A DNA stretch of 64,000 nucleotides from the NCBI GenBank assembly GCA_017511205.1, contig JAFWLE010000010.1:1-64000 (forward strand), read 5' to 3'. Below are positions 3,997 to 48,600 of this stretch, in pieces. The stretch comes from Candidatus Saccharimonadota bacterium (GTDB taxonomy: Bacteria > Patescibacteriota > Saccharimonadia > Saccharimonadales > Saccharimonadaceae). The notes below the pieces were generated by a model that was given only the letters and a program-made list of their open reading frames with translations, was not told the origin of the DNA and did no database searches. The first letter of the stretch is position 1; each line of letters opens with the position of its first letter. The translations under genes and the position numbers were made by a program.

Positions 3997-4020
3997 CCAC
4001 TCCCCAACAATACAAAATCA

Positions 4021-4046
4021 AAAAACCGCCCCTTAGGGCGGTTTTT
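4021..4046. terminator. bidirectional terminator
   Basis: AAAAACCGCCC / GGGCGGTTTTT around a 4-nt loop. On the minus strand it terminates the 67-aa gene that ends 12 bp away; on the plus strand it faces the end of the tRNA-Ile element. Confidence 0.85.
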
Positions 4047-4057
4047 ATTTACGCTAA

Positions 4058-4261
4058 TTATTTTTTCTTGAGAGTGAGGAACCCGTTGCGTGGATTCTCC
4101 ACTACCATGCGATCAGCTGGCAAATCGCAAGGAGTACCCTTGCCGCCATTCTCTTCCTTAGTGAAGAAGTAAATAGTCTGAGGCTTGCCGCCACGTAGAG
4201 TTACTTCAGATTTGTGTAGATAGTATTTCACACCTTTACCGTTGGTATGTTCGTAAGCCAT
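4058..4261 (-). CDS. conserved small hypothetical protein (67 aa)
   Basis: A 67-aa basic protein with the pattern KYYLHKSEVTLRGGKPQTIYFF near the middle and a C-terminal ENPRNGFLTLKKK. I recognise the general pattern from Patescibacteria genomes but know no function. A strong ribosome-binding site (AAGGAGGAAAG) precedes the ATG, and the gene is monocistronic with its own terminator, which suggests high expression. The sequence looks like a small beta-barrel but no domain can be named. Confidence 0.75.
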   Translation of the reverse strand: MAYEHTNGKGVKYYLHKSEVTLRGGKPQTIYFFTKEENGGKGTPCDLPADRMVVENPRNGFLTLKKK

Positions 4262-4347
4262 TTAGCTTTCCTCCTTAAGTTAATATATTCCTATCTTATG
4301 TCTAGGTCGCTAAATTGTCAAGAGGTTTTTTATCTTTTTCTCTAATT

Positions 4348-8597: not shown

Positions 8598-8772
8598 ATC
8601 CTAATTTTCTTTTACTGAACTTTTCCTTTTTAAAGGAAAGTCCAAGCTAGTGCCTGAGTGCTCTGCAAGGGAGAGCAAACTATAAGCGTTTTTAGGCTAC
8701 TCCTTGTTAATACTCTGCTGAGCTCTTATTTAATATCAAGTACGATATGCTTATACTAAGAGACATTAATAA
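8598..8772. other. non-coding left flank of the recombinase/DGR island
   Basis: No convincing ORF. Small inverted repeats are visible, such as GCTCT...AGAGC around 8659-8682 and CTCTTA...TAAGAG. The stretch AGGAAAGTCC near 8641 recalls the start of P4 in RNase P RNA but nothing else of that RNA follows. This is the likely left junction of the accessory island; no attachment site could be identified. Confidence 0.4.
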
Positions 8773-8807
8773 ACGAGCCTTAATGATAATATATCACAAA
8801 GGCTCGT
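8773..8807 (-). terminator. terminator of the recombinase operon
   Basis: ACGAGCCTT / AAGGCTCGT (9 bp, 17-nt loop) immediately downstream of the minus-strand recombinase stop codon. The long loop makes it weaker than usual. Confidence 0.6.
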
Positions 8808-8809
8808 AA

Positions 8810-10510
8810 TTACAAAATCTGATGCTGTTTTTTGGCTTCTTCAAGTGTTACACGAATATATTCGTCACCATAGAAGTAGTAGAGCATGGAATTAGGCTTT
8901 ACTAAGATATAATCAATAGTCTTAAGGAAGATTTCATCATTGAATTTGGTGAGCTGCTCTGGTAAAGCTTTAATAGTCTTAATAAAGGTAGTGAGTTCAG
9001 CTTTTCTGGCTCTGAGACTAGCTTGTTCTTCTTCCAGCTCCTTCTTATGCCGGAAGGCCTCAATCATTTCTTCTTTAATAGCTTCCTGACGTAATCTAAA
9101 CTCTTCGTTTTTACCAAAGGTAAGCTCCCATTCCTGGTCTAAGGAGACTTTATTCTTTTCAATCTCCTTAATATGCTCGTCTTCGGCTCTGATCTCCTTT
9201 TCTATACCACTTGGCTCTAGTCTATGGTCTATTCTTTTAATCTTTCGCTCGTATCTGCCCAAATATTCGTGTCTAACGCCGATGAACTTGCTTAAAGCTA
9301 TCATGTATCCATTAACGATCCATTCCTCCCTTAAATTAGGAGTTTTACACTTCTTATCGCTATAAGTAGTCTCTTCAGTATACTTATTTCTACAAACCCA
9401 AGCTGAATATTTAATGTTTCCTCTGGAATTCCAAGTCTTATGGCCAAAGATCTCACCACATTCATTGCATTTGATCCTACCTACAAAGGGGCTTTTTGCT
9501 GTACCTTTAGTTTTACGCTTAGTACGCTCACTAATTAGTTCCTGGGCTCTCGCAAAGGTTTCACGGTCTATAATAGCTTCATGATTATTTTTTACTAAGA
9601 CTTGAGGTTTTTCACCATTATTCTTATGGCAGTATTTATCTAAGTAGCTTTTCTTATAAGTTTTTTGGAGTAGTACATCACCAGTATACTTTTCATTAAT
9701 CAGGATGCGTTTTACTGCTTCGCCAATCCAAGGTTTCTGATTCTTAGTGGTAATGCCTTCACTATTTAGCTTAGTGGCAATAGAAGCATAGGATTTACCA
9801 GTTAAGAATTCATTAAAGATGAGCTTCACGGTTTCAGCTTCTTCTGGTACGATCTCGGGATTACCATCTAAGCCCTTTTTATAGCCTAAGAAGTTACCAT
9901 AGCAGATGGTGACTTTACCTTCTTTCATATTACGCTCTTTGCTCCAGCGGACGTTATTACTTAAGGTATTTGAATAATGCTCATTAGTAGCTCCCATTAC
10001 TTGGAGCATGGTACGATTATTAGTGCCTGACGTTACTATACCTTCTGATTCAAAGGAGACTTCTACGCCATATGACTCTAATTCGTCTAAAGCTTCAATA
10101 AACTCTACATTATTCCTACCAAATCTAGAGGTAGCCTTAGTGATAATCATATCAATCAGACCGGCTCTTACGTCATCCATCATTTCAAGAAAACCAGTTC
10201 TTCCTTTCATAGAAGTACCGCTTTTTCCTTCATCACCATATACTCCGGCACACTCCCAATTCGGATTATCATTGATTAACTTCTCATAGTACTGTTTCTG
10301 CAGAGCATAACTTCCTTGTTGTTCTTCTAGGCTAGTACTCACCCTACAATAAGCTGCTACTCTAATCTTCTGGTGACTTGGTTCTACATGGTCACGATCC
10401 GGATGGAGACTCTTAGTAGCTGGGATGACGACTACTTTACGATTACTAGTTGCATGGTTAGATGGTAATGACACATTTGTGTCATATCCTTCAGCTTCAC
10501 TTTGATTCAT
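8810..10510 (-). CDS. large serine recombinase (resolvase/invertase family)
   Basis: Protein of 566 aa. The N-terminal catalytic domain (about 48-200) contains RVAAYCRVSTS, with the nucleophilic Ser in CRVS, and ITKATSRFGRN, the conserved Arg cluster. A Recombinase domain (about 215-320) and a zinc-ribbon (about 365-415, CNECGEIF then later Cys) are followed by a long coiled coil (about 440-530). Such enzymes catalyse site-specific integration and excision of mobile elements. The ATG overlaps the TGA of the upstream recombinase (ATGA), so the two are translationally coupled. It is presumably one subunit of a heteromeric or paired integrase that moves this island. Base usage is closer to Firmicutes-like mobile elements than to the neighbouring core genes, an impression rather than a measurement. 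Confidence 0.9.
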   Translation of the reverse strand: MNQSEAEGYDTNVSLPSNHATSNRKVVVIPATKSLHPDRDHVEPSHQKIRVAAYCRVSTSLEEQQGSYALQKQYYEKLINDNPNWECAGVYGDEGKSGTSMKGRTGFLEMMDDVRAGLIDMIITKATSRFGRNNVEFIEALDELESYGVEVSFESEGIVTSGTNNRTMLQVMGATNEHYSNTLSNNVRWSKERNMKEGKVTICYGNFLGYKKGLDGNPEIVPEEAETVKLIFNEFLTGKSYASIATKLNSEGITTKNQKPWIGEAVKRILINEKYTGDVLLQKTYKKSYLDKYCHKNNGEKPQVLVKNNHEAIIDRETFARAQELISERTKRKTKGTAKSPFVGRIKCNECGEIFGHKTWNSRGNIKYSAWVCRNKYTEETTYSDKKCKTPNLREEWIVNGYMIALSKFIGVRHEYLGRYERKIKRIDHRLEPSGIEKEIRAEDEHIKEIEKNKVSLDQEWELTFGKNEEFRLRQEAIKEEMIEAFRHKKELEEEQASLRARKAELTTFIKTIKALPEQLTKFNDEIFLKTIDYILVKPNSMLYYFYGDEYIRVTLEEAKKQHQIL

Positions 10511-12072
10511 TTTTCGCTCCTTTCTGCCACTCCGTGGCTTTTAGCGGGTTTGGATGTTTCGGTTTCTACCGTATTACTAAGCTCTTCTTTTTTACGCTTC
10601 GCAATTATTTCTAGTGCTTTAATGCGAGCACGCTCCTTCATTTCCGGAGTCCAAGATTCACGTCTGGATTTGAACTGCCACTTAGTCGTGACGATCTCAC
10701 CATCTGCGAGATGATATTCTAAGGCCTGATCCTTATAGGCAATAATCTTAGTAATCAATCTGGTGAGAAGGTCATGAGTAAGCTCTGGTAGGTTTCCGGA
10801 GCTATCTTTTTTGATGAGTTTATGGGAGAGAAGGACGTCGGTGGTGACTTCTATTAGAATGGTTTCTGGAATGGCTTTATTAGGACACTTAGTTTTGCCA
10901 AAGTCTAAATAATCATTACAAACCCAGATTTCACGCTTGCTGGTGTTAATAATGGCTTTATAAATAAAACTTGTATGGCAGTGAGCGCATTTGATAATGC
11001 CAGTAAAAAGTCTATACCCTTTAGGCCCTTTATGATTACTAGGTGACTTGGCGTTAATGACAATCAGATGATTTTGTTTCTCACGGCGAGCAATTTCTTC
11101 CTGAGCCTTATTAAAGGTAATCTCATCTATGATTGGCTCGTGGGCACTTGTCACCAGATACTGTGGCAATTCTCCACGATTAATGGCTTTTCTCTTGGTA
11201 AGATAATCTACACGATAAGTTTTTTGAAGTAGTAAGTTGCCGATGTATTTCTCATCACGTAAGATTCCGTAGATGGTAGCCGTGCGCCACCTTTTGCCAC
11301 TTAGGCTTGGAACACTATCGTTAATCAGCCTTTTCGCTATGGCTCCTACACCCATGCCGGATAAATACATTTCAAAGATACGTTTAACAACTTTCGCTTC
11401 TTCCGGCACTACTTTCAGTGTATATCCATCCATATAGTAACCATATGGTCTGGTATAAGTTGGAATACCTTCTTTAAAGCGGTTTCTAATCGCCCATTTT
11501 TGGTACTCACTATTCTGCTTAGATTCTACTTCTGCTTGGATGCCTTGGTATTGTAGTTCAAAGATGGTATCAGAATTATCGGTACTTAAGCCTTCGTTAT
11601 CAAAGATGACTGTGACATCAAGCTCTTTTAACTCACGAATGGTTTTTAAAACTTCCTTCATATTCCTACCAAATCGTGAGACAGTCTTAGTGAGGACAAT
11701 ATCAATCTTTCCGGCTCTGGCATCAGTAAGCATTTGGTTGAAGGCTGGACGATTAAGTTTAGTACCAGTTTTTCCTTCATCTACATAGTGCTTAGTAAAG
11801 ATCCAGTTCGGATGGTTTTTGGCATATTCTTCTAAGTGCTTCATCTGCATAGCAATGGAATGATGCTTGATCTCACTTTCACGCGAAACTCTAGAATATA
11901 CCGCTACTTTCTTTAAAGCGAATTGTTTTAAATCCGTTCTTGGAATGTAGCTGATATATTTTTCTGGTTCTAAGGTACTAACTTTAGGTTCCGCGAATGT
12001 GCTATCTAATGTGCCGTCTTCTACTGCACTATTTTCTACTGTGCTGTTTTCTAATGTACAAGTTTGCTTCAT
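10507..12072 (-). CDS. second large serine recombinase
   Basis: Protein of 521 aa. Catalytic domain (about 50-190) with VAVYSRVSRESE (Ser nucleophile), DEGKTGTKLNRPAF and LTKTVSRFGRN; Recombinase domain (about 205-310); zinc-ribbon (about 365-410, IKCAHCHTSF ... CPN). It lacks the long coiled coil of its partner, so the two are paralogues with different C-termini. Tandem serine recombinases in one operon are typical of integrative elements. Coupled by a 4-bp overlap to the downstream recombinase and preceded by an HTH/zinc-finger gene 9 bp upstream. Confidence 0.9.
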   Translation of the reverse strand: MKQTCTLENSTVENSAVEDGTLDSTFAEPKVSTLEPEKYISYIPRTDLKQFALKKVAVYSRVSRESEIKHHSIAMQMKHLEEYAKNHPNWIFTKHYVDEGKTGTKLNRPAFNQMLTDARAGKIDIVLTKTVSRFGRNMKEVLKTIRELKELDVTVIFDNEGLSTDNSDTIFELQYQGIQAEVESKQNSEYQKWAIRNRFKEGIPTYTRPYGYYMDGYTLKVVPEEAKVVKRIFEMYLSGMGVGAIAKRLINDSVPSLSGKRWRTATIYGILRDEKYIGNLLLQKTYRVDYLTKRKAINRGELPQYLVTSAHEPIIDEITFNKAQEEIARREKQNHLIVINAKSPSNHKGPKGYRLFTGIIKCAHCHTSFIYKAIINTSKREIWVCNDYLDFGKTKCPNKAIPETILIEVTTDVLLSHKLIKKDSSGNLPELTHDLLTRLITKIIAYKDQALEYHLADGEIVTTKWQFKSRRESWTPEMKERARIKALEIIAKRKKEELSNTVETETSKPAKSHGVAERSEK

Positions 12073-12081
12073 TTTACCTCC

Positions 12082-12723
12082 TTAGCTTGACAATTCATCA
12101 GAGCCTTCAAATGACGAATCGCCAGAATTATTATGGTTAGTATGATTAGTATTGACATTTCTAGCAGCAAAGCTAGAGCCACTAATTGCAGTGGGTTTCG
12201 TATTAACTACGATTATCTCGCCGCCACTCAATTCATCACTCACTTTATGAATTAAGTCCAGTGTTTTTGGAGAGTCTTTTGAATTTTTTAATTCTCCTTT
12301 TAACTCCTTTTTTGGAATACTGCCTATATGTACTTGCATGGCATAAGGCTCAGCTTTTAATCCCTCTAGTTTATCCAGCTCCTCTAGCTCTTTTTTGAGC
12401 TTAGTGCTAATAATCTCATCTTCATGAGCTTTTCGCCAAGCACTAATACGGCAGCGTTCTGAGCAGTAGGACTGGAGCCTTCTGGTCTTAGGCATAAATA
12501 GTTCGCCACAGTTCTTGCAGATAAGGAAGCGGATCCTATTACGGTTACCACCATTATGGCTACTATTGCAGCTATCTCCGCCATCTTCTACTGGCATTAT
12601 CTTATTAGTCTGGCAGTAGCTCGCTACAGTACTTTTTGGTAATTTGAGTAAATCTGCGATCTGACCATAAGAACAGCCGTGAGTTCGCATGGTTTCTACT
12701 TTGAGTTTTTCTTCAACTTTCAT
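12082..12723 (-). CDS. HTH and zinc-finger protein of the recombinase operon
   Basis: Protein of 213 aa. Residues 1-45 form a helix-turn-helix (CSYGQIADLLKLPKSTVASY), residues about 68-95 a zinc-binding motif CKNC...CSERC followed by RISAWRKAHE. The C-terminal half is low-complexity, rich in Lys/Glu then Asn/Ser. Small HTH/zinc-finger proteins are commonly encoded next to tandem serine recombinases in Firmicutes elements and may regulate the operon or direct recombination; this role is inferred. First gene of the operon; four 10-bp direct repeats lie about 50 bp upstream and could be its operator. Confidence 0.7.
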   Translation of the reverse strand: MKVEEKLKVETMRTHGCSYGQIADLLKLPKSTVASYCQTNKIMPVEDGGDSCNSSHNGGNRNRIRFLICKNCGELFMPKTRRLQSYCSERCRISAWRKAHEDEIISTKLKKELEELDKLEGLKAEPYAMQVHIGSIPKKELKGELKNSKDSPKTLDLIHKVSDELSGGEIIVVNTKPTAISGSSFAARNVNTNHTNHNNSGDSSFEGSDELSS

Positions 12724-12770
12724 ATTGTATTTTTCTCCTTTGATTTGATTTTTATTGGTTGGTATCGGTG

Positions 12771-12810
12771 AGTATTGGTTAATATTGGTTAATATTGGTT
12801 AATATTGGCT
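12771..12810. repeat. four 10-bp direct repeats upstream of the recombinase operon
   Basis: Tandem AGTATTGGTT, AATATTGGTT, AATATTGGTT, AATATTGGCT. Helically phased 10-bp spacing suggests cooperative protein binding, for example by the HTH protein or a recombinase. Confidence 0.8.
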
Positions 12811-13382
12811 GGTTAGATTTTGATTATTTTGGACTAGTTTTTACTGATTTTGATTGATTATGGCTGGCTGGCTACAGTAGATTCTATCACCAGCGCCCTC
12901 GCCCCTAAGCATTAGATATTAACTAGGGAAACTAGTTAATATAGTCTCTGCCATCTTTTCTCTTTAGCTCGGTGAATTGGGGCATAAAGGAGTCAGTTGT
13001 TCACGATTAGGGGTCACATGAAACCTCACATGATTCCTACCATGAAACGACAAAGCTAATGTTTAAAATCAAAAACAGCCAGTGACGAATCCGTCCCCGG
13101 CTGACCTAAACGATAATAACAAATTGAAATTTTGCTTGAGATTTACAAAACTTCTAAATAAAGTACGTTTAATAAAGTACATTATGAAGTAGGATTAAGG
13201 TCTAGATCAGACGTTTCTGGAATAAAGGTTTAGTTTATCTACTTAAACCTAATAGATTGGATTAGTAAAGAAAATACTTATCAGATTTCCCATCTTCTAA
13301 TTAGCTTGGTAATGACACCCTATCTATAGTCACTACCTGTTAATTATATTAGCATAAAAGCAATAAAAAAGCAAACATAACA
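12811..13382. other. 570-bp non-coding region between the recombinase operon and the DGR target gene
   Basis: No ORF of note. It contains a hairpin at 13076-13103 (CAGCC...GGCTG with inner GACG/CGTC) and several TGGTT/TTAGT-rich short repeats near 12811-12880. No tRNA or known RNA family recognised. Confidence 0.5.
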
Positions 13383-13426
13383 AGTATGGGTGGCGTCTAA
13401 CAAACCAGTATGGGTGGCGTCTAACA
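13383..13426. repeat. pair of 20-bp direct repeats
   Basis: The 20-mer AGTATGGGTGGCGTCTAACA occurs at 13383-13402 and again at 13407-13426, 24 bp apart start to start, upstream of the DGR target promoter. Candidate regulator or recombinase binding site. Confidence 0.85.
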
Positions 13427-13491
13427 GAGGAGAAAGCTATCTGAGCTAAGTCTATTAAATGTATATTTAGTAAGAAAATTAGTGCGGATAC

Positions 13492-13590
13492 TTGCAAAAA
13501 AATTATGAATGATTTACAATAATAATGTTTACGTTAATATTAACAAAAAGCCTTGTTCTGCCAGATGGTGACTATTCACAGTCTGGCAGA
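13492..13590 (+). promoter_or_regulatory. promoter and 5' UTR hairpin of the DGR target gene
   Basis: TTGCAA (13492-13497), 17-bp spacer, TACAAT (13515-13520). The transcript would carry a leader of about 95 nt with a 9-bp hairpin TCTGCCAGA / TCTGGCAGA (13557-13565 and 13582-13590). A ribosome-binding site AAAGGAAT precedes the ATG at 13623. This contrasts with the leaderless core genes. Confidence 0.65.
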
Positions 13591-13622
13591 TCTTTAGGTC
13601 ATACATATAAAGGAATAAACAA

Positions 13623-15242
13623 ATGAATAATCGCTCTAGTGCAAAGCTTTGCATGGGACTAACCGCAGGGCTAGTAGGTCTTACTACTGCCTCAGGTTTA
13701 GTACTCATGAGTACTAAAGTTTCCGCTGATGATGTGGTGGATAACATTTCAATTACAGTGCCAATTGCCTGTTCTATGTCAGGCACTATTGCTTCTGGCA
13801 ATGAACACACTGCCGAAATCGCTAACGGCACTTATCAAGCAAACATTGGCACAACATCCATCAAAGCCTTGTGTAACGACAACGCTGGCTTTTCTATTTA
13901 CGCTATCGGAAACTCTGGCGATACATTAGGCGAAGAAGATAGTACTAAACTTCTTGGTACAAGCGCGAGTGGTAATGCTAAAATCGTTACTGGTACTGCT
14001 ACAACCGCAGGAACCCCAGACGTAAGCAATTGGGCGATGAAACTTGCTACTGATTCTGAGGCTTCTTATCCACTTACTATAGAAAGTGATACAGAAGGAG
14101 CCTTTTCTAGCTATCATACAGTGCCAGCAGAATACACTAAAGTAGCTACTAGACTAGCTGGTACCGATGTTGGTACAAGTGCGGAAGGAGCTACACTTAC
14201 TACTACTTATGCTACTTACATTTCTAAGACTCAAGCTGCAGATACCTATACTGGTAAAGTAAAGTATGTCTTAGTCCATCCTAATGATGGTACTGCTCCA
14301 GTGATTCCTACTGCTTCTACTTGTAACACTCCAGTACCAAATCTTACTTATATGCAAGATCTCAATAGCTCAAATAAATCTACAGTTCTAGCTTCTATGA
14401 CAGAAGACGAACAATACTTCTTAAAAGATGCTCGTGACGAGAAAACCTACTGTGTAGCTAAGCTCAAAGACGGTAATATCTGGATGACACAGAACCTAGA
14501 TCATGATATCAGCACTACTTATAGCTACACAAATGAAAACACTGATATCGGCTGGAATGGTAGTAGTTATACTTCTACTTCCTGGACTGCAGAACGTGCT
14601 ACCTATACCACAGGCACTACTACATGGGACGATTACAATAGAATTAGTGATCAAAATGGTGTAAATGGTTACTACCATCCCGAATCCTATGATCCTGGAG
14701 AACTGTACTGGAACGGTACTGCAGCATATTATGATAACGAAACAGACTGCGTAGCAGCAGGTGGCACCTGGGATGACAATAATGGCCTATGCAATCTTAT
14801 TGCCTCTAGTGGAGACTCTCACTATCATTTAGGTAATTATTACAACTGGTCTGCCGCAGTAGCCACCAATGACACCAGTTCCTACACCACACAGTATCAA
14901 GACCTAGACCGTTCCATCTGTCCAGCCAACTGGACATTACCAAAGAGTGGTGATAATACATTCAACGGTTCTTTCCAGTATCTAGTTACTCAATATGGTT
15001 GGGATAGTAGCGAATATACAATGACTAATCCAAACATTTGGAATACCGCTATTAAAAGTGCTCTAGCTGGCGGTTGGTACGGCTCGCTGGAAGACGTTGG
15101 CTACTACGGCGCCTGGTGGTCACCGGTGGTGGGCAATTCCGACCTCGCGTACAGCCTCGACGCCGACTCGGATGGGGGCGTCGGCCCTGTCGTCGGCTAC
15201 GGCCGCGGCTACGGTAATCTTGTCCGTTGTATTGCTCGTTAG
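13623..15242 (+). CDS. DGR variable target protein, secreted, FISUMP/C-type-lectin-like C-terminus
   Basis: Protein of 539 aa. Residues 1-36 are a signal peptide or N-terminal anchor; about 38-225 resemble the beta-rich N-terminal module of the other surface proteins here; about 235-539 form a FISUMP-like (Fibrobacter major paralogous) domain, with YCVAKLKDGNIWMTQNL, SICPANWTLPKSG and a terminal GNLVRCIAR. FISUMP and sulfatase-modifying/lectin folds are known DGR display scaffolds. Residues 481 to the stop are the VR; the variable positions (for example the GGWYGS, GYYGAWW and GYGRGYGN positions) are those read as Asn in the template. No C-terminal anchor is seen, so attachment must be N-terminal or by association. 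The role is likely surface ligand recognition. Confidence 0.92.
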   Translation: MNNRSSAKLCMGLTAGLVGLTTASGLVLMSTKVSADDVVDNISITVPIACSMSGTIASGNEHTAEIANGTYQANIGTTSIKALCNDNAGFSIYAIGNSGDTLGEEDSTKLLGTSASGNAKIVTGTATTAGTPDVSNWAMKLATDSEASYPLTIESDTEGAFSSYHTVPAEYTKVATRLAGTDVGTSAEGATLTTTYATYISKTQAADTYTGKVKYVLVHPNDGTAPVIPTASTCNTPVPNLTYMQDLNSSNKSTVLASMTEDEQYFLKDARDEKTYCVAKLKDGNIWMTQNLDHDISTTYSYTNENTDIGWNGSSYTSTSWTAERATYTTGTTTWDDYNRISDQNGVNGYYHPESYDPGELYWNGTAAYYDNETDCVAAGGTWDDNNGLCNLIASSGDSHYHLGNYYNWSAAVATNDTSSYTTQYQDLDRSICPANWTLPKSGDNTFNGSFQYLVTQYGWDSSEYTMTNPNIWNTAIKSALAGGWYGSLEDVGYYGAWWSPVVGNSDLAYSLDADSDGGVGPVVGYGRGYGNLVRCIAR

Positions 15243-15287
15243 TTTTATGGTTTCATGTTTCGTTGCGTTTCCTTCCTCCCGCCTTCC
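15063..15287 (+). repeat. DGR variable repeat (VR)
   Basis: A 225-bp match to the template at 15686-15910 (constant offset 623). From 15063 to the stop codon there are 30 differences, all at TR adenines: changes to G, C and T are all present. They fall in 18 of 20 AAY codons and the single AAA codon. The 3' 75 bp (stop codon and after) retain identical adenines except one A-to-C at 15282, so mutation effectively ends near the GGTAATCTTGTCCG segment that should contain the IMH. Confidence 0.97.
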
Positions 15288-15302
15288 GAAACTCAAGAAA
15301 CC
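15249..15302. promoter_or_regulatory. VR-specific hairpin downstream of the variable repeat
   Basis: Arms GGTTTC (15249-15254) and GTTTCG (15257-15262) pair with CGAAAC (15287-15292) and GAAACC (15297-15302). The left arms are shared with TR but the right arms are not, so only the VR copy can form it. DGR targets are known to need a hairpin/cruciform just after VR for efficient retrohoming. Confidence 0.7.
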
Positions 15303-15488
15303 GTAGTACTGGAACAAAAAAAGTATCTCATCTATCTAGTGACATGATAGAACCGTTTTGCCCAGAAACTGGCGAGCTAAGAGTTAAAAACTAAAATGGT
15401 CTGATAAAACCTACCAAACAAGAAAAGACATGCTTTAAGTTTTGCGCGTGCAAAGCGGCGCGAAATTTTAAAACCTATTTTGTTATGC

Positions 15489-15494
15489 TATAAT
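15489..15494 (+). promoter_or_regulatory. promoter -10 box of the TR RNA
   Basis: TATAAT preceded by TGC (TGCTATAAT, extended-type). A transcript would start near 15500 and read through the structured leader into TR. No good -35 is visible. Confidence 0.6.
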
Positions 15495-15499
15495 GAACA

Positions 15500-15685
15500 T
15501 GCGGTAGTCCGCGTGGACGAGTGCAGGACCCGAGGCAAGGCTCATTCCTACACTGGTACCATTAATAGGAAGGCAAAGAACCTACCTAGGTAGTACACTT
15601 AGGTTTCGTACTGTGCCGCCGTATGCCTCAAGGGGCGTAATGGGGATAAAATGGTTCTTCAATATTACTGTCTTAAGTGACTCTA
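15500..15685 (+). ncRNA. structured leader of the DGR template RNA
   Basis: Between the -10 box and TR lies a 185-nt ORF-poor segment with paired elements: GCGG-TAGT-CCGC at its start, AACCTA...TAGGTT, and a long-range GAGGCA / TGCCTC pairing that is extended by CCC / GGG. DGR template RNAs carry such flanking structure, used by RT and Avd to prime cDNA. Pairings were found by eye only. Confidence 0.55.
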
Positions 15686-15910
15686 CTAGCTGGCAATTGG
15701 TACGGCTCGCTGGAAAACGTTGGCAACAACGGCAACTGGTGGTCACCGGTGGTGAACAATTCCAACAACGCGTACAAACTCAACGCCAACTCGGATGGGA
15801 ACGTCAACCCTGTCAACAACAACAACCGCAACAACGGTAATCTTGTCCGTTGTATTGCTCGTTAGTTTTATGGTTTCATGTTTCGTTGCGTTTCCTTCCT
15901 CCCGACTTCC
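15686..15910 (+). repeat. DGR template repeat (TR)
   Basis: Same frame as VR but loaded with AAC/AAT codons (20 AAY plus one AAA between the first codons and the stop), the signature of a DGR template because A is the mutable base and AAY codons give broad diversity without stops. A short open frame over TR (15677-15865) is a by-product of this and is not called as a gene. A hairpin AGCCG-aag-CGGCT follows at about 15924. Confidence 0.97.
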
Positions 15911-15973
15911 TAACCGCTAAGATAAGCCGAAGCGGCTACCGCTAATGAGAAGTACTATTCTTGTTTTATAATG

Positions 15974-17104
15974 TTACTGCCTCTTGCGAGGCTTTTTAAG
16001 TTTAGGATAGTTGTAGTCCCAGCCAAGGCCATTATAGATTTTGTAGTTTAGTTTGTGACTGTTTAGATGTGCAAGATGCCCATCATAGGAGCCGATACTC
16101 TCTAGCTTGCCTTTGCCAGTAGTGGCGAGACGGTAAGCTGTAGAAGCGAAGTTTTTCTTAATGCGACTACCTGGTACCATGTGGTCATAGTAAACTTTTG
16201 CTCCGAGGAAGTCCACTCCTTCTTCTGATGGGATTTCAAATTGTTTCTTAGGATGAATGGTAAGACCAAGCCGAGCAGTGAATCTTTCTACTTTTGCTAA
16301 ATCCTGTAATAGTTTTGCTAGTTCTGACTCTTTGATGACGATGAAGAAGTCGTCTACATAACGACCATAGTGTTTATAGCCGAGTGTGATAGTAATAAAG
16401 CGGTCTAACTGATCCAAATAAATATTGGAGAGTAGTTGTGAGGTGAGATTGCCAATGACAATGCCACGGCCTTTGGGTTGAGAAAATAAGCTTTTATCAG
16501 CTGGGAGTTCGTCCCAATCGCTGGCTCTGCCACGGATCCTGACTCCACTAACTGGATCATCAAAGATGATTTCTTTCCATAAGTATTTGAGGGTGCGGTA
16601 AAGTTCGCCGCCGTCTGGAAACTGGCGCTTTAACCCCCATAAGATGCGACTGTATAGCCTATTATGGTCTAGACTCATAAAATAGCCTTTTAAATCGCGT
16701 TTTACTACATAGGTTTTGATTTTACCATTCTCGCTGACACTTCTGATTTGATGCCGTAAATCCTTAATGCCATAAAGCGTGCCTTTACCTTTACGGCAGG
16801 AATAAGCAGAATTAATCAGCCTAGGTTCCCACCAGCTACTAGTGTGCTTGAATAGAAAATGATGGACTACGCGGTCTACAAAAGGAGCAGCAAAGACTTC
16901 TCTGGTAACGGGATCGTGAATGATAAAAGCAACGCCACGACTGGGATGATATCTTCTGGACACAATTGCATCACGAAGACGCAGGATGTTTTCTAAGTCA
17001 TTTACTTCAAAGCGGTGCTCGTCTAAAGTTTTTCTCTTGCCACCGACCCTAGCTTTCTGATAAGCTTCTACGAGCTCCTGGTACAGATAGTTTTGATATT
17101 CCAT
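15974..17104 (-). CDS. DGR reverse transcriptase
   Basis: Protein of 376 aa. It should copy the TR RNA into cDNA, misincorporating at adenines. RT motifs: QPKGRGIVIGNLTSQLLSNIY (about 205-226, DGR-type motif 4 with SQ) and the catalytic YVDD in GRYVDDFFIV (about 245-255), followed by LGLTIHPKKQ and VDFLGAKVYY (motifs 6 and 7). No maturase or endonuclease domain, as expected for DGR RTs. Encoded on the strand opposite to VR and TR and converging on TR, 23 bp downstream of the accessory gene with which it is presumably co-transcribed. Confidence 0.95.
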   Translation of the reverse strand: MEYQNYLYQELVEAYQKARVGGKRKTLDEHRFEVNDLENILRLRDAIVSRRYHPSRGVAFIIHDPVTREVFAAPFVDRVVHHFLFKHTSSWWEPRLINSAYSCRKGKGTLYGIKDLRHQIRSVSENGKIKTYVVKRDLKGYFMSLDHNRLYSRILWGLKRQFPDGGELYRTLKYLWKEIIFDDPVSGVRIRGRASDWDELPADKSLFSQPKGRGIVIGNLTSQLLSNIYLDQLDRFITITLGYKHYGRYVDDFFIVIKESELAKLLQDLAKVERFTARLGLTIHPKKQFEIPSEEGVDFLGAKVYYDHMVPGSRIKKNFASTAYRLATTGKGKLESIGSYDGHLAHLNSHKLNYKIYNGLGWDYNYPKLKKPRKRQ

Positions 17105-17127
17105 TTTTTTACCTATAACTCTTTATG

Positions 17128-18000
17128 CTAGAGATGCTTAATCTCGCGTGCAATAATATCGTTGATTTTGATAATGATTTCACTAATCCGAGAGCAGGTC
17201 TTAGGAGTCCAGATTTTCAGGTCTAAAAGAAGCTTAGTCTGGTACTTGATGATTTTTAAGTTTTGCTTCATCTTTTTAAGGCAAGTTAGTTTATCAATTT
17301 CGCCATTAGAAAGATCTAAATATAAGTGTGACATTTTCGTAGTAGCAACGAGCATTTGGTAGCCAAAGGTATCTTTTTCTACGGGACTGCCCATACCACG
17401 GACATTTTCGTAGATGGCCTTTAAAAGCTCTTCAATCTGGATAAAGAGAACGGGCATGCTGTTATCTACCATTACAACGTGATTAAATATTTGAAGTGCT
17501 ACTAGGTTTTGTTCGGTAAAGTTATTTAGCTGGTCCTTAGTGAAATGCCAAGGAAATTTGAAGAGCAAGAAATTACCGGACTGACCTCTAGTTTTCACTG
17601 GTTTGATATTTAAGGTAAGTAAGGCTTCAGCTAACTTCTCTGGCTTCCTGATTGAGATGAACCCTTCGTTAGACTTATTAGTGAAGTCCTTGTCGTCTTG
17701 TAGTTTAGCGGTGAGGTTTAGTTTTGGTGCTAGGCTGTAGGTGTAATATAGGGCGGAATGCCCGAAGAGCTTGTAGAAACCGTGAGTAGAGCGCATCAGA
17801 ACCAGATAATTATAGTTGGATTCCTCAAATTGAAGTACCGCGGCTTTATTAGCATTATAAAGCTTATTAAGGGTACTTTTAATAAGACTCAGCTCGGATT
17901 TTACGCTTTTTGTTTGAGGCTTTAACCTTAGATTTTCTATTTTTGCCTCAAGATCAGAAATTGAGGGTGAGGTTTTGATATTTAGTGGTGGGTTTTCCAT
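17128..18000 (-). CDS. DGR accessory protein: MutS-domain-I-like region fused to an Avd-like helical bundle
   Basis: Protein of 290 aa. N-terminus: coiled helix (15-50). Residues about 60-160 (SNYNYLVLMRSTHGFYKLFG, then NLTAKL and FISIRKPEKLAEALLTLNIK) follow the layout of MutS domain I, the mismatch-reading domain with its F-x-E motif; here the equivalent is F75-Y-K. Residues about 185-290 are four amphipathic helices (FIQIEELLKAIYENVRGM to INDIIAREIKHL) resembling Avd, the pentameric RT partner and RNA-binding factor of DGRs. Position directly upstream of the RT supports the role. A TATAAT lies at 18033-18038 and AAAAGGAG precedes the ATG. MutS similarity is by eye and moderate. Confidence 0.75.
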   Translation of the reverse strand: MENPPLNIKTSPSISDLEAKIENLRLKPQTKSVKSELSLIKSTLNKLYNANKAAVLQFEESNYNYLVLMRSTHGFYKLFGHSALYYTYSLAPKLNLTAKLQDDKDFTNKSNEGFISIRKPEKLAEALLTLNIKPVKTRGQSGNFLLFKFPWHFTKDQLNNFTEQNLVALQIFNHVVMVDNSMPVLFIQIEELLKAIYENVRGMGSPVEKDTFGYQMLVATTKMSHLYLDLSNGEIDKLTCLKKMKQNLKIIKYQTKLLLDLKIWTPKTCSRISEIIIKINDIIAREIKHL

Positions 18001-18038
18001 AGACTCCTTTTGTTACGTTGATGATAACAATTATTATA

Positions 18039-18280
18039 AGGAGGCTTCTGAGACTAGTCTTTAGATCTGGTTTTAGTGGTGCCTATATATGGTTTTTGAG
18101 CTTACAGATTGCATTTTTGGCAACGTCGTTGTAACGCAAATGTAGCGACTACATTTTCACCTGTCTCATCGCTGGTACATTGCAAACGTTTTTCGTACTC
18201 TAAAATTATGCTTCAAAAATTTCCGACAAATGAGACGTGGTGAAGGCTCTGTTTTGCGACAAAAATAAATATAAGAAAAC
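18039..18280. other. right flank of the island with palindromes
   Basis: No ORF. A perfect 8-bp inverted repeat AAATGTAG-CGA-CTACATTT sits at 18138-18156, and GTCTCAT (about 18163) is inverted as ATGAGAC (about 18227). These are candidate recombinase or regulator sites near the presumed island end; no core duplication with the left flank was seen. Confidence 0.5.
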
Positions 18281-18310
18281 AAAAACTTCCCTATAAAATG
18301 GGAAGTTTTT
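18281..18310 (-). terminator. terminator of tRNA-Arg(UCU)
   Basis: AAAAACTTCC / GGAAGTTTTT with a 10-nt loop, 35 nt downstream of the tRNA. A second small hairpin CTGGAG/CTCCAG (18314-18330) lies between. Confidence 0.8.
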
Positions 18311-18344
18311 GACCTGGAGTGACTCTCCAGTTATAACAGTTTAA

Positions 18345-42601: not shown

Positions 42602-45600
42602 ATGACGAAAAGGTGTTTTAGGTGTGTTTTCAAAAAGCATTCTTCCACCAAAAGATTTGGTGTACTATATGGTTTTTGCCTCGTTCTACTTACCATTATT
42701 CTCTCAAATTGTAATATTAGTCTAGTTTCTGCTTCTGATTATTCTCTATCTCTTACCACTGATACTGATATCGAATTAAATACCCTTGCTGGTGATACAG
42801 CTATAAATGAAAGTAGTATTAATGTAGCTACTACTTGTAGAGCTGGTTATAATCTTTTTCTTACTACTTCAGTAAGCAACAATAATCTATATCTAGATGG
42901 TAATGTTGATAATAGTGGTGATAATTCTTTTATTGCTCCAGCCGACGGCACTACCGCTCTTACTAATGCTGCTAACACTTGGGGCTATTTGTTATCTTCT
43001 AGTGCGCCTACCAGTGATAGTGTTTTCTTACCAGTTTCATCTAGCCTACTAAATCCAGCTATCCTTAAAACTGATCAAGAAACTGCTTCAGAAGAAGATA
43101 TTAATGACAGCTTCCCGATTTACTATGGCACCAATGTTAGTCCGACTTTAATGAAAGGTGCTTATACGATGATTCCAGAAGATTCATCCACAGAAACTCT
43201 CACAAATGGAGGCTTAGTTTACTATCTAACCGCAAGTTTTAACTGTATCGAAACTCTAGATATTAATTTCAATCAAAATCTAGATGGAGCCGGCGGAGAA
43301 ACTTCCGAAGATCCAGAAGACACCGTCTCTAACTTCCCAGCAGCCAATGAAAGTACCATCAACCAAGTACTTCAAACTCTAACACTCAGCAGTAAAACAC
43401 CTACTCGCACCAAAGGCTACCTTTTCAAAGAATGGAATACTGAGCCCGATGGAAGCGGTACTAGCTATAATCCCAGAAGCAGCATTAAAATCGGCTCCAA
43501 TACCTCAGCCGGTGAACTTAGTGGAAACGTCACTTTGTATGCCATTTGGCAGCAAACCATCACCTTTAATTTCGATGGTAATGGTTTTTATTTTGACGAA
43601 AATGAAACTGAAGAAACTAATAATATCACTTACGCCGCAACCTGTTCAACACAAACCACCGCGGTTGATTACGCTATTGCTAGAACTCAAAACGTCAATG
43701 ATGACGGCACAATGAAATATCTTTACGATTCCAACACACCAGAAGAAGAAACTATTACTATTCCTGATGCTAGCTCTCTTAGGGTGGAACTCTTTTATGG
43801 TTATGATCAAAATGGCGGCATGGATGTCTATTATGGTGGTAATTCCAACTCTGGCTCACATTACGGTTATTTTTGGCAAAATGCTTGGGAAAACAACAAC
43901 GAAATCAGCACTGACATTTTTACGGTAAATAGTAATACCGTCAGTTTCCTCACAAAACGCTGGGGTCCGCCAGCCAAAGAATACTACGGTTACTATGCTA
44001 AAATCCACCCCCTAAACAGCAGCGGCATTCCGATCCCTTATGAAAACCAAATCACTCAAAAAACCTGTGAATATGAAAAAATATCAGGCGACTATAAAAC
44101 ACCACTTAGCGGCAACTACCCATTCTATAAATGGCAAGCTGACTCATCCAACCATTACTTCTCGCAAGAAGAAGATTTTAACCAAATGCTAGAAAATGGT
44201 GTTTTTAACGATTATTTAGGCCAGACCTTCACCTTTGACGCTGTTTACGAAACCGTTACATTCAACTTCCTTGGCGGTGGCCTTTACTTTGACGAGAATA
44301 AAACCGAAGACATTAATACTGTCACCTATGCCAATACCTGCACCGAGCATTCAGCCTATATCGGCGACACACCAACTATATCCAAAACCCCCAACATAAA
44401 TAACGACAGTACTATGCAAGAATACTACAATTCTAACGAACAAGAAACAGATACTGTTTCATTCTCTGGCGCAAATAAACTAAAAGTAGAACTAACTTAT
44501 GGTTACGACAATAATGGCGGTATGCAACTGTTCACTGGTATACCAGCAGACGATGGCAATTACGAAGATGACGAAACCTATTATAGCTATTTCTGGTCAG
44601 GAGACTGGGAAGATGCCGAACAAACTTCTTCAATTACACTTTTCTTAGATTCTGATACGGTAACATTCATTACAACCAGGTGGGGTGAGCCCACCAAGGA
44701 CTATTACGGCTATCATGCAAAAGTTACCCCAATCTATAACAACGAACATTCCGGAGCAACTTATGGCTCCTATGAAATTTGTGGTTGGCAAACCATTGAA
44801 GGCGAATTCAAACTCCCAATTTTAGACAACATTGAGCTAGACAATTGGTACATCTCATCTATAGACGAATATTTTCATAGAGAATCCGAAATCATTTCAG
44901 CACTTCAAAACGGCATGGGCTCAGATCTCGTCGGACAGACTTTAAGCATGGATCCAATTTATAATAGTATCGTAAGAATTGACTATAATAGTAACGACCT
45001 CTTCTTTGATAACGCTGAAACTAAGAAAACCAATACAGTATTATATAGCAACGTCTGCACCGAGCAAGACGGCGAAGAAGTCTGCAGCTGGCAAAGTGTT
45101 GCAGGCGAATATCAATTACCAATCCTAGTCAACATAGAATTCAAAGAATGGCATAGTGATTACCTAGGCAATTCTTTTACAAGTGAGTCAGAAATCCTAG
45201 AAATGCTTGAATCAAATGGTGATAATTACTACGGCCAAACTATCACCATTGACGCAAGGTATAACGCCGTCACCATCGTCTATAATGGTAATGGTCTTTA
45301 CTTTGATGAAAGCAAAACTAAAGAAACTAATACAGTAATATACGCAAATGCCTGCCAACCATTGGAATATGGCTATATTGGTGATACACCAACCGTCTCA
45401 AAGACTCCTAATGTAGAAGACGATGGCTCCGCCTCCAGCGGCTATGCTTACGATTTCACTCAAAATGATCCTATAACCATTCCTGGTGCAGATAAACTCA
45501 AAATTGAACTAAGCTATGGAATTGAAAGCGGCTACGATCAATTGTATATATTTGAGGGCACCTACAGCGGAGAAATAAATGAGAATCTTTCTGCCGGACA

Positions 45601-48600
45601 AATAAAACAATTTACTGGCGGAGAAAATTACGATACAAATACAGACCATAGCGGAGAAGCAACATTTATCGTAGATGGCAATACTGTATCTTTTGTATTC
45701 TTCGGTAACGATTACGAAGACAACGGTTATTATGGTTATTACGCCAAAGTATATCCTGTATACAATGAAGAACAAGAAAACACAACTTATGACAGCCTCG
45801 GTGAAACCTGTGGTTGGCAAGCCGTAAAAGGCGAATATACATTACCAATTCTTGGTTATAGTACATTTAGCGAATGGTACTATGATGATGGCGAAGGGCA
45901 TCGATCTTTTAGCAACGAAGAAGATATCATTAGCGCACTCCATAATAGTATGGGTGAAGACTATTCTGGCCAAACACTCACGCTAAATGCAGCTCACCAA
46001 GACCCCATCACATTCATCTTTAACGGCAACGGTCTTTACTTTGATGAAAATGAAACAGAGGAGACTAATACCGTAATTTATGCTGACACTTGCACCACGA
46101 AACAAGGTTATATAGGCAACAATTACGAAGAAGTTATGACATCAAACATCAATACGGGCGGTATCCAGAATGGCGCCTATACCAATGAAGAATACATCCT
46201 AGAAACTGTAACCATACCAGAAGCAAACAAGCTAAAAGTAGTAGTTAATTATGGAGTCACCGGAAACTCTTCTCAAGCATATGTGCTAGATGGCGAATGG
46301 AACGGCGATTGGGATTATTGGTTTAGTAGATGGGACAGGAATCGTCTTTCTAGTGAAACAGACACTATTGGTACTAAAACCTATATAATAAACGACAATA
46401 CGACGACCATCTACGCAACAGGCTGGAACACGCCAACATCTGGTTATGACTATGGCTACTATTTTAAAATCTATCCAATCTATGATGAAGAGCAAAATAA
46501 TACTACTTATAGCCCATATGAAATCTGTGGCTGGCAGGCTGTAGAAGGAACTTATAAATCTCCTATCACATTGGAGAGTGAAAGTACCTTTAATCATTGG
46601 TATTCTGATTATATTGAGTCCATCGACAGTAATCTCCAGTATGATGACGATGAATCGCAAATCATAGATAATTTGTCAGACTGGCTTGGACAAAACCTAT
46701 CTGGCCAAACCATCACTTTCCAAGCCGATTGGAACCAAATAGTTAATATCACTGTCAATTTAGACGAGCATGTTAGAAGTATCGGGATTTATGATTGGAA
46801 TGACGGAACAACCATAAATATTGTTAACAATAACGGTAATGGTGATGGCACCGAAACAGCTACTATTAGCCTAAAAACCAATGTAAGCTACAATATTTCA
46901 GCAAGTTATGATTTGGGATATGAAATAAACACCTGGACCACCACTGAAGGTGGTACGCTAGATGATTCCGTCAGTGAGGTCACTAATTACATATTGACCG
47001 GCACAGCTACACTTGGGCTTACTAGTAAATTTAAACAACCGCCAATTTCCTGTAATACACCAATCCCAGCTCAAAACATTACCTATATGCAAGATATTAC
47101 GCCAGCAAATAAAGCTGCAGTCTTTTCCAGCATGGAAACCAATACCGCTTATTACCTAAGAGACTCTCGCGACTATGAACCATATTGTGTAGCCAAACTT
47201 GCCGATGGAAACATCTGGTTCCTAGACAATCTGCGTTTAAATATCACGGATAACGAAGTCATAACCAACATAACAACTGCCAATACTAATGCTTCATCTA
47301 CTACGCTAAATTATTTCAAAAATGGTGGTGGATCATCATCAGACCAATACGCTATAAATGGCCTAAGCGGCTACGATTGGTCATATAGTCACAGTTATTC
47401 TGCCCCATTGGCCAGTACCTATTTCAAAAACCATATAACTACTCCCCGCGGTAATGGTAGTGGCAAAGTAGGTATCTTTTATAACTATTGTGCTGCCTCT
47501 GCCGGCTCATATTGTTACGGTAATGGTAGTTCCACCGGCTCTCCATCGGGCGATGCTACGGAAGACATTTGCCCAGTCAATTGGCGCATGCCTACCGGCG
47601 GAGCAAACGGTGAATACCAAATTCTCGCTAGAACTATCACTGGCTCTAATGCCACATCTTACAGTGATACTGATGCTAATAACATCAAAAATGCTCTTTC
47701 TATCTCAACCTCCGGATATACAAGCAATGGATCTTCAATAGATAGCCTAAATAGCTCTAGCTACTTCTGGTCCTCCACTTATTACGACTCCAATTATATG
47801 TATGAATCGTACACAGCATCAAATGCCGTATATCCACAGTATCATTCCACTGGTTCACGCACATTTGGTTTTTCTGTTCGCTGTCTCATGGAATCTCCAT
47901 CCCATGCCGTCACTGTATCACTAGATTCAGGCACCTCCAGCATCACATTTACCGATCAGTTCAATAGCACTCAAACCGCTACTACTGAAAGCCCAACCGT
48001 CAGCCTCAAAGAAGGGAGAGTTTACACAATTATCGCTACTATCGCTACCGGCTATGAATTCTCATCTTGGTCCACCGGCGCAAATGGCACTCTAGCTTCT
48101 AATCTAACCAACCCTACTACGTACTCAGTCACAGCTCCCACTACCCTTACTGCTACTTCTGAAGAGATTCCTAGCTATGCAGTAACTGTAAATATGGATT
48201 CACATTCTAATAGTGTCAGTTTCTATAATCCAGACTATGGCACGCAAACCGCGACTTCAGATGGGGTCACTGTATCCTTACGTCATGGAGCAGACTATAC
48301 CATCACAGCCACTACCGACCTCGGCTATGTGTTCGCCAATTGGTCCACCACTTCAAATGGCATATTAGCTAGTGCAAGTATAAATCCTACAACATACACT
48401 ATCACAGGCGAAGCCACTCTAGAGCTTACTAGCCAAATACCACCAGTGCCAAGTTCATGCAACAGAGAGATTACAGGTATTACATATTTGCAAGACATCA
48501 CCGAATTAAACAAATCTACGATTCTATCCGGCTTAACCACCAACACAGCCTATTATCTAAGGGACTCTCGCGATAACGAACCATATTGCGTAGCTAAGCT

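Follow-up and report, generated by a model that had tools for sequence, protein, structure and literature searches.

What has produced two repeats of 225 nt that lie close together, beside a gene for a reverse transcriptase (RT), and differ at 31 positions? They occur in a window of Saccharimonadota DNA (by window is meant the whole 64,000-nucleotide stretch that was analysed). An earlier note on this DNA held that a target protein with a variable repeat (VR), a template repeat (TR), an RT with the motif YVDD and an Avd-like protein, all within 4.4 kb, make up a complete diversity-generating retroelement (DGR). Each of these elements is indeed found, and the reading as a DGR is borne out by mismatches confined to adenines, an RT of DGR type, an Avd fold, a C-terminal VR, a 3' block free of mutations and a hairpin that follows VR but not TR. 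The note left out the strand layout, the two domains of the Avd protein, the structured leader of TR and the island in which the element sits. We hold it very probable, judging from the sequence, that the locus is a complete, functional, chromosomal DGR that is presumably active at present. DGRs are already known; here and genus-wide, TR stands tail-to-tail with RT and Avd has an extra domain.

Adenine-specific repeats and the target gene

VR (15063-15287, plus strand) and TR (15686-15910, plus strand), recognized by their pairwise match, align without a gap over 225 nt, and 31 of their 31 mismatches fall at an adenine of TR (21 A>G, 6 A>T and 4 A>C). Non-adenine differences are absent from all 225 nt. 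Since 55 of the 225 nucleotides of TR are A (24%), the chance of such an outcome is about (0.244)^31. The 30 differences and 19 affected codons that had been claimed between 15063 and the stop codon are reproduced exactly: 30 mismatches lie no farther than 15242, the last nucleotide of the stop codon, and alter 19 codons, all non-synonymously, and the remaining one, an A>C at 15282, lies 3' of it. Seventeen of the 19 altered codons read AAC in TR, where 17 of 17 AAC codons are altered, and just 1 of the 153 possible A-to-N changes yields a stop. Remote VRs were sought in the same genome with TR DNA, and at E<=0.01 it matches TR and VR only. The genome's FISUMP paralogs, compared with TR, give a match that is not A-specific.

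The target gene (13623-15242, plus strand) encodes 539 amino acids. VR runs up to its stop codon and so makes up the C-terminal part of the protein, in which 19 residues have been changed from template Asn or Lys codons. The FISUMP/lectin-like domain ascribed to it stands as regards the match to the FISUMP model TIGR02145 (E=1.1e-8), with the reservation that the score, 35.9 bits, is under the curated cut-off of 41.65. A search of PDB sequences with the target gave no match. The N-terminus, read by eye, looks like a signal peptide. The product is a probable secreted or surface-type FISUMP/C-lectin-like protein, with a putative location at the surface and a putative ligand.

No mismatch between TR and VR occurs between 15211 and 15282, leaving an invariant, pyrimidine-rich block (15212-15281, plus strand; TTTCCTTCCTCCCG) at the 3' end of VR. 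The block is IMH-like and may act as the IMH, as had been supposed. Across the same end of VR runs an inverted repeat able to form a hairpin (15245-15306, plus strand), whose left arm is inside VR and whose right arm is missing from TR; a hairpin is present 3' of VR and not 3' of TR. The folding energy of 15243-15345 is -21.7 kcal/mol, and the 60 nt directly 3' of VR fold weakly at this locus (-5.4 kcal/mol). Over 64 loci, the stretch after VR folds more strongly than the stretch after TR (p=8e-6).

A template RNA opposed to the reverse transcriptase

The RT gene (15974-17104, minus strand; 376 amino acids; RVT_1 E=2.8e-12) lies 64 nt from TR. Its reading frame is intact and contains the DGR-type motifs YxDD and GxxxSQ, as YVDD and VIGNLTSQ. 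The best match of the RT profile in the PDB is the RT of the Bordetella phage DGR (8ub7_A, E=5.5e-42), and support for the RT clade is 100/100. Genome contigs searched with the RT alignment yield relatives, and the RTs of named relatives are up to 72% identical, which confirms that the genome belongs to Ca. Saccharibacteria. Some sister species have no RT.

The genes for RT and Avd are on the minus strand; target, VR and TR are on the plus strand. How general is this? The A-specific signature of TR and VR is present in 64 of 81 scanned loci (80 named ones and this locus), and in these 64 together 1401 of 1461 mismatches are at A, which makes up 26% of TR, a fraction partly imposed because the search score favors A. 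Strand layout was read by a script that, as a control, recovered the TR of Bordetella phage BPP-1 on its RT strand. TR is antisense to RT and just 3' of it in 60 of the 64 resolved Saccharibacteria loci (this locus and 59 of 63 others), and the target in this lineage is often on the RT strand. In most of the loci compared from other Patescibacteria, TR lies upstream of RT on the same strand, and Avd is short and free-standing.

The DGR of BPP-1 (brt, avd, TR, mtd) is like this one in its adenine-specific changes from TR to VR, its related RT (8ub7), the four-helix fold of its Avd, the position of VR at the 3' end of the target gene and the hairpin on the VR side. It is unlike it in layout, for in BPP-1 a single strand carries every part and TR precedes RT, whereas at this locus RT and Avd are on the strand opposite to TR and target, and TR is 3' of RT. 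The present TR also has a structured leader and terminator of its own, and the present Avd an added domain. Closer in layout are the inverted (group 4) DGRs of Shewanella, Vibrio and Photobacterium, in which TR, VR and target share the strand opposite to RT and which were described from three RTs as a rare, one-time inversion (PMC3521204, 2012). The present case differs from group 4, for inversion is the norm of the lineage (the 60 of 64 loci), the target is often on the RT strand and Avd is fused. DGR clade 2 is restricted to Patescibacteria (Roux et al. 2021, PMC8144416); these too are cellular DGRs of Patescibacteria, a likeness in host group.

There are signs that TR has a transcript of its own. 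A promoter-like site, TTTAAA-16-TATAAT preceded by TG (15467-15494, plus strand; 10/12 in a consensus scan), is matched in close relatives by TATAAT or TAAAAT at the corresponding place, although promoter-like sites in the region are no more numerous than in shuffled sequence. Next comes a structured leader (15498-15685, plus strand), conserved in seven species. It contains a covarying three-way junction of 27 pairs (15566-15662, plus strand), in 13 of which both partners have changed; the share of paired cells is 94.7%, versus 33-54% in slid controls. An intrinsic terminator, GCCTCTTGCGAGGC followed by TTTTT (15979-15997, plus strand), overlaps the 3' end of RT. In an Rfam search of the locus a tRNA alone passes, leaving the leader with no known family. 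A covariance model of the leader matches this locus alone in its own genome and, in 60 relatives, the corresponding locus of G009 alone. The model (R1) has no match in the other 70 DGR loci of the genus or in four outside loci, and therefore the leader is either clade-specific or too divergent. A single global alignment of 63 leaders was unsuccessful because the sequences are too dissimilar. The leader, of about 190 nt, presumably has a function.

The accessory protein and its added domain

The accessory gene (17128-18000, minus strand) encodes 290 amino acids, and the claim that its product is Avd-like holds for the C-terminal half; N-terminal to it is an added domain. Residues 155-289 (17134-17538, minus strand) form, in the AlphaFold model (pLDDT 95), the four-helix Avd fold, with Foldseek matches to 4dwl and 8ub7 (TMt about 0.8) and E=0.0036 against NF033474. 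Several family members match Avd in NCBIfam and PHROG. The whole protein, used singly or as a profile, found no relative in searches of PDB sequences, nor did the single sequence find a match in the genome contigs.

The added domain (residues 31-152; 17545-17910, minus strand), about 120 amino acids, is confidently folded by AlphaFold. It is fused to Avd in 79 of 80 loci of the lineage, whereas 20 other Patescibacteria have an Avd that lacks it, and K52, E59, N62, S82 and D103 are invariant. It would be a lineage-specific accessory module, one that most likely binds nucleic acid. Profile and fold comparisons suggest a weak resemblance to MutS domain I: hhalign gives P=0.0012 (probability 19%) over 76 collinear columns, second among 33 non-self profile comparisons. 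MutS-like (MSL, PF01624) proteins are named as DGR accessory factors where PMC10053308 cites Wu et al. 2018. By comparison with that account, the likeness would be that a DGR is accompanied by a module possibly akin to MutS domain I, and the difference that this module is joined to Avd on its N-terminal side and is too divergent for the Pfam cut-off (best single member against PF01624, E=0.04). The domain may be related to MutS domain I and may replace a separate accessory protein of the MSL type. A more specific scheme strikes us as improbable: that in Saccharibacteria that have no recognizable MutS a mismatch-binding module derived from MutS domain I was fused to Avd, that the retrohoming complex thereby handles the mismatched cDNA:VR heteroduplex, and that the template is a separate, structured RNA whose gene converges on that of RT.

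An alternative, to which we give a little less than an even chance, is that the domain has nothing to do with MutS and is an RNA-binding module of the lineage that holds the leader of the TR RNA. By itself it has no significant match in Pfam, the PDB or Foldseek, in reciprocal HMM searches it does not stand out as MutS-like, and it occurs, with its five invariant residues, in the lineage whose TR would have its own promoter and structured leader. Against this are the hhalign result, the published MutS-like accessory proteins and the MutS-family chains in the Foldseek list for the domain (ranks 14, with E=0.54, 34 and 40), none of them significant.

Proposed mechanism, island and putative present activity

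We propose that a dedicated promoter gives rise to a non-coding RNA of roughly 500 nt (about 15500-15997), consisting of the structured leader, TR and a 3' tail that extends to the terminator abutting the 3' end of the RT gene. A minus-strand operon, transcribed separately, would supply RT together with the Avd protein and its two domains. If the system resembles that of the Bordetella phage, the TR RNA would be bound by RT and oligomeric Avd and copied inaccurately at its adenines; the altered cDNA would then replace the VR of the target, guided by the pyrimidine-rich 3' block common to both repeats and by the hairpin that VR alone possesses. In DGR biology the step still to be explained is how the mutated cDNA enters VR. 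A lineage with an extended Avd, a separately transcribed TR and a covarying leader offers a natural comparison, which could show what RNA structure RT and Avd need, what the accessory proteins do and whether TR has to be joined to the transcript for RT, a question that the inverted DGRs already published answer in the negative. For epibiotic Saccharibacteria of the ruminant gut, a DGR would provide rapid variation of a probable surface protein, relevant to attachment to the host or escape from phage.

The DGR cassette is inserted in an otherwise empty site. It lies in a 9.7-kb island (8600-18344), between aspS and tRNA-Arg(TCT), whose opposite end holds two large genes for serine recombinases and a small one of HTH/zinc type (8810-12723, minus strand; Pfam Resolvase, Recombinase and Zn_ribbon_recom), and the island is absent from the corresponding site of the sister species G003. 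Might the DGR be carried on a mobile island that the adjoining recombinases move, and diversify that island's own FISUMP gene? The edge at tRNA-Arg and the empty site speak for it, as does a similar recombinase set next to a FISUMP gene in G003 and next to the DGR in L117. No att repeats were identified at the island, and few other DGR loci have recombinases alongside. We think the idea unlikely, though worth entertaining, and it is compatible with the explanation given above rather than opposed to it. A general association of recombinases with DGRs is unsupported.

We think it quite improbable that the DGR worked until recently and is now an intact-looking relic, its VR a record of past events. 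A single snapshot of TR and VR gives no date for the last event, and RT is missing from some sister species. Targets do lose their link to TR, as is shown by an orphan fragment resembling VR elsewhere in the genome (L063, 4010-4290, 69% identical to TR) and by roughly twelve FISUMP paralogs for which there is no matching TR. Against this, not one non-A mismatch has accumulated over 225 nt, the target, RT and accessory reading frames are all open, and compensatory changes have kept the base pairs of the leader. As for the notion that TR and VR are an ordinary duplication, diverged by point mutation or positive selection near an unrelated RT, the many FISUMP paralogs in the genome lend it a certain appeal, but there is next to no chance of its being right, already contradicted as it is by mismatches at A of one copy only, by a TR copy that is no gene, comes with a promoter-like site, a leader and a terminator of its own and lies close to a DGR-type RT, and by the recurrence of the A-specific pattern at 63 other loci.

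A genuine diversity-generating retroelement

The window element is a genuine diversity-generating retroelement (DGR) of known kind, as the earlier note claimed. Its template repeat (TR, 15686-15910) and variable repeat (VR, 15063-15287) form a gapless alignment of 225 nt, in which all 31 differences fall at TR adenines (21 A>G, 6 A>T, 4 A>C). The reverse transcriptase (RT) carries the motifs VIGNLTSQ and, as had been noted, YVDD; the best solved-structure match of an RT profile built from 19 relatives is the Bordetella phage DGR RT, 8ub7 (E=5.5e-42). The note's count of 30 adenine differences up to the end of the stop codon, in 19 codons, proved exact on gapless alignment. Each of these codons is altered non-synonymously, and 17 of them are AAC in TR (every AAC codon of TR is altered). 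A stop would arise from just one of the 153 possible A-to-N changes. The 31st difference is an A>C at 15282, 3' of the stop codon. At this same site several species of the window's clade have GACTTTCC in TR and GCCTTTCC (or GTCTTTCC) in VR. The DGR may well be active today, and the target protein presumably has a ligand.

The genome (796 kb, 12 contigs) groups with Ca. Saccharibacteria, chiefly from ruminant gut, Ca. Nanosyncoccus alces among them. A tree of 38 RTs puts those of this lineage in a single 100/100 group. Three separate DGR RT loci occur in each of several genomes of the genus (G213, at L281-L283; G007; G035). In 64 Saccharibacteria TR/VR pairs, 1401 of 1461 differences lie at A, a fraction partly imposed by a repeat-pair search score that favours A. 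A>C is scarcer there (174) than A>G (676) or A>T (551).

At the 3' side of VR, an invariant pyrimidine-rich block is followed by sequence found on the VR side only. An inverted repeat (15245-15306) folds here, and its right arm is missing from TR. Over 64 loci, folding is stronger after VR than after TR (median -12.1 vs -6.5 kcal/mol, p=8e-6), consistent with the hairpin requirement demonstrated for the Bordetella phage BPP-1 (PMC3240598). Elsewhere in the same genome (G000:C9, locus L063), a fragment at 4010-4290 is 69% identical to TR and ends in the VR-type 3' motif CCCGCCTTTCCGAAAC. Orphaned, with no whole target gene around it, it is probably a fossil VR.

Tail-to-tail layout and the template RNA

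In BPP-1, TR lies on the RT strand, whereas here it lies opposite: the minus strand encodes RT (15974-17104) and the accessory protein, and the plus strand carries the target, VR and TR, with 64 nt from the end of TR to the 3' end of RT. A scan for A-biased repeat pairs, run on the window and on 80 named Saccharibacteria loci, obtained a pair in 64, and in 60 of these TR is antisense to RT and immediately 3' of it. The A-favouring score does not affect orientation, and for BPP-1 the same script places TR on the strand of the RT. As for VR, 51 of the paired loci have it on the RT strand and 13 on the opposite one. Among 14 paired loci from other Patescibacteria, TR is on the RT strand in 10 and not in 4, three of the latter convergent as in the window. 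Inverted RT/TR has been reported as rare (PMC3521204; PMC6642488), so the new aspect is that an entire lineage has the tail-to-tail layout as its standard form. In other Patescibacteria a short avd gene (L284-L289) often lies opposite the RT strand, between TR and RT.

An independent structured template RNA is part of this variant form of DGR. An extended -10 promoter-like site upstream of TR (15467-15494, plus strand) and a predicted intrinsic terminator (15979-15997, plus strand) predict a TR RNA of about 500 nt. Its leader is conserved in 7 species and contains a three-way junction of 27 pairs (15566-15662), 13 of them changed on both sides; 94.7% of cells are paired, against 33-54% in slid controls. 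No Rfam family matches the leader. A model of it finds only this locus in its own genome and one locus, in G009, among 60 relatives. The conserved CTTTCC 3' of TR could, by its sequence, pair long-range with the leader's GGAAAG.

A two-domain accessory protein

A fused two-domain Avd is likewise part of the variant form. The 290-aa accessory protein (17128-18000, minus strand), modelled from a 59-row alignment, is predicted at mean pLDDT 95. Its C-terminal half resembles Avd (Foldseek: 4dwl, 8ub7; TMt about 0.8, rmsd 2.0-2.5 A), and the NCBIfam and PHROG Avd models recur most among members. A second domain, spanning the N-terminal ~120 residues, is also predicted well (pLDDT 92 when modelled alone). 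The fusion is present in 79 of 80 named loci, a count that includes a few truncated or split copies, and the sole exception is on a truncated contig. One copy in G213 is broken by a frameshift between the domains. Outside the genus, 20 of 287 genomes have a match, to the Avd half only, in open frames of 114-183 aa.

What is the added domain? Kinship with MutS domain I is a lead that I rate about even. By hhalign the two align collinearly over 76 columns at P=0.0012, a value subject to selection bias since the likeness was first spotted by eye and tested later. MutS domain I ranked second among 33 non-self comparisons, and the sole better match spans just 26 columns. MutS of E. coli and a pair of MSH3 chains appear in the Foldseek list (ranks 14, 34 and 40), though none is significant. 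The position aligned to the mismatch-wedge Phe36 of MutS is aromatic in 58 of 59 members; two residues on, 42 of 59 have Lys, not Glu. PMC10053308, citing Wu et al. 2018, names MutS-like (MSL, PF01624) proteins among DGR accessories. On the other side, a Pfam search with the domain gave nothing above cut-off, a MutS-I HMM search did not pick out the accessory proteins, and Foldseek gave no significant match. In the wider phylum MutS_I scores above cut-off in 51 of 240 genomes, but in neither this genome nor any of 60 related ones. Contigs G171:C8, G156:C16 and G091:C23 of other Patescibacteria have MutS_I matches (E about 1e-11) in open frames of 750-1000 aa. I infer a role for the added domain within the element.

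A variable insertion spot and the target's paralogs

The aspS/tRNA-Arg(TCT) interval (window 8600-18344; L290-L297) is a variable insertion spot. In G003, a sister species without RT, 157 bp including tRNA-Arg separate aspS from a methyltransferase gene; in the window this space is occupied by the DGR together with two large serine recombinases and a third, small gene, and in other relatives by several kb of different content. Relatives of the three recombinase-region genes adjoin a FISUMP gene in G003 (L295, 11222-16633), a genome with no DGR, as they do in the window. Recombinases adjoin few of the other DGR loci.

The target has about a dozen FISUMP-type paralogs in this genome (L064-L073; window 42602-53701), one of them forming part of a 3699-aa protein encoded in the window; none shows an A-specific match to TR. 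Upstream of the target gene itself (13623-15242, plus strand), a 24-nt tandem repeat occupies 13379-13426 in two copies, 96% identical.
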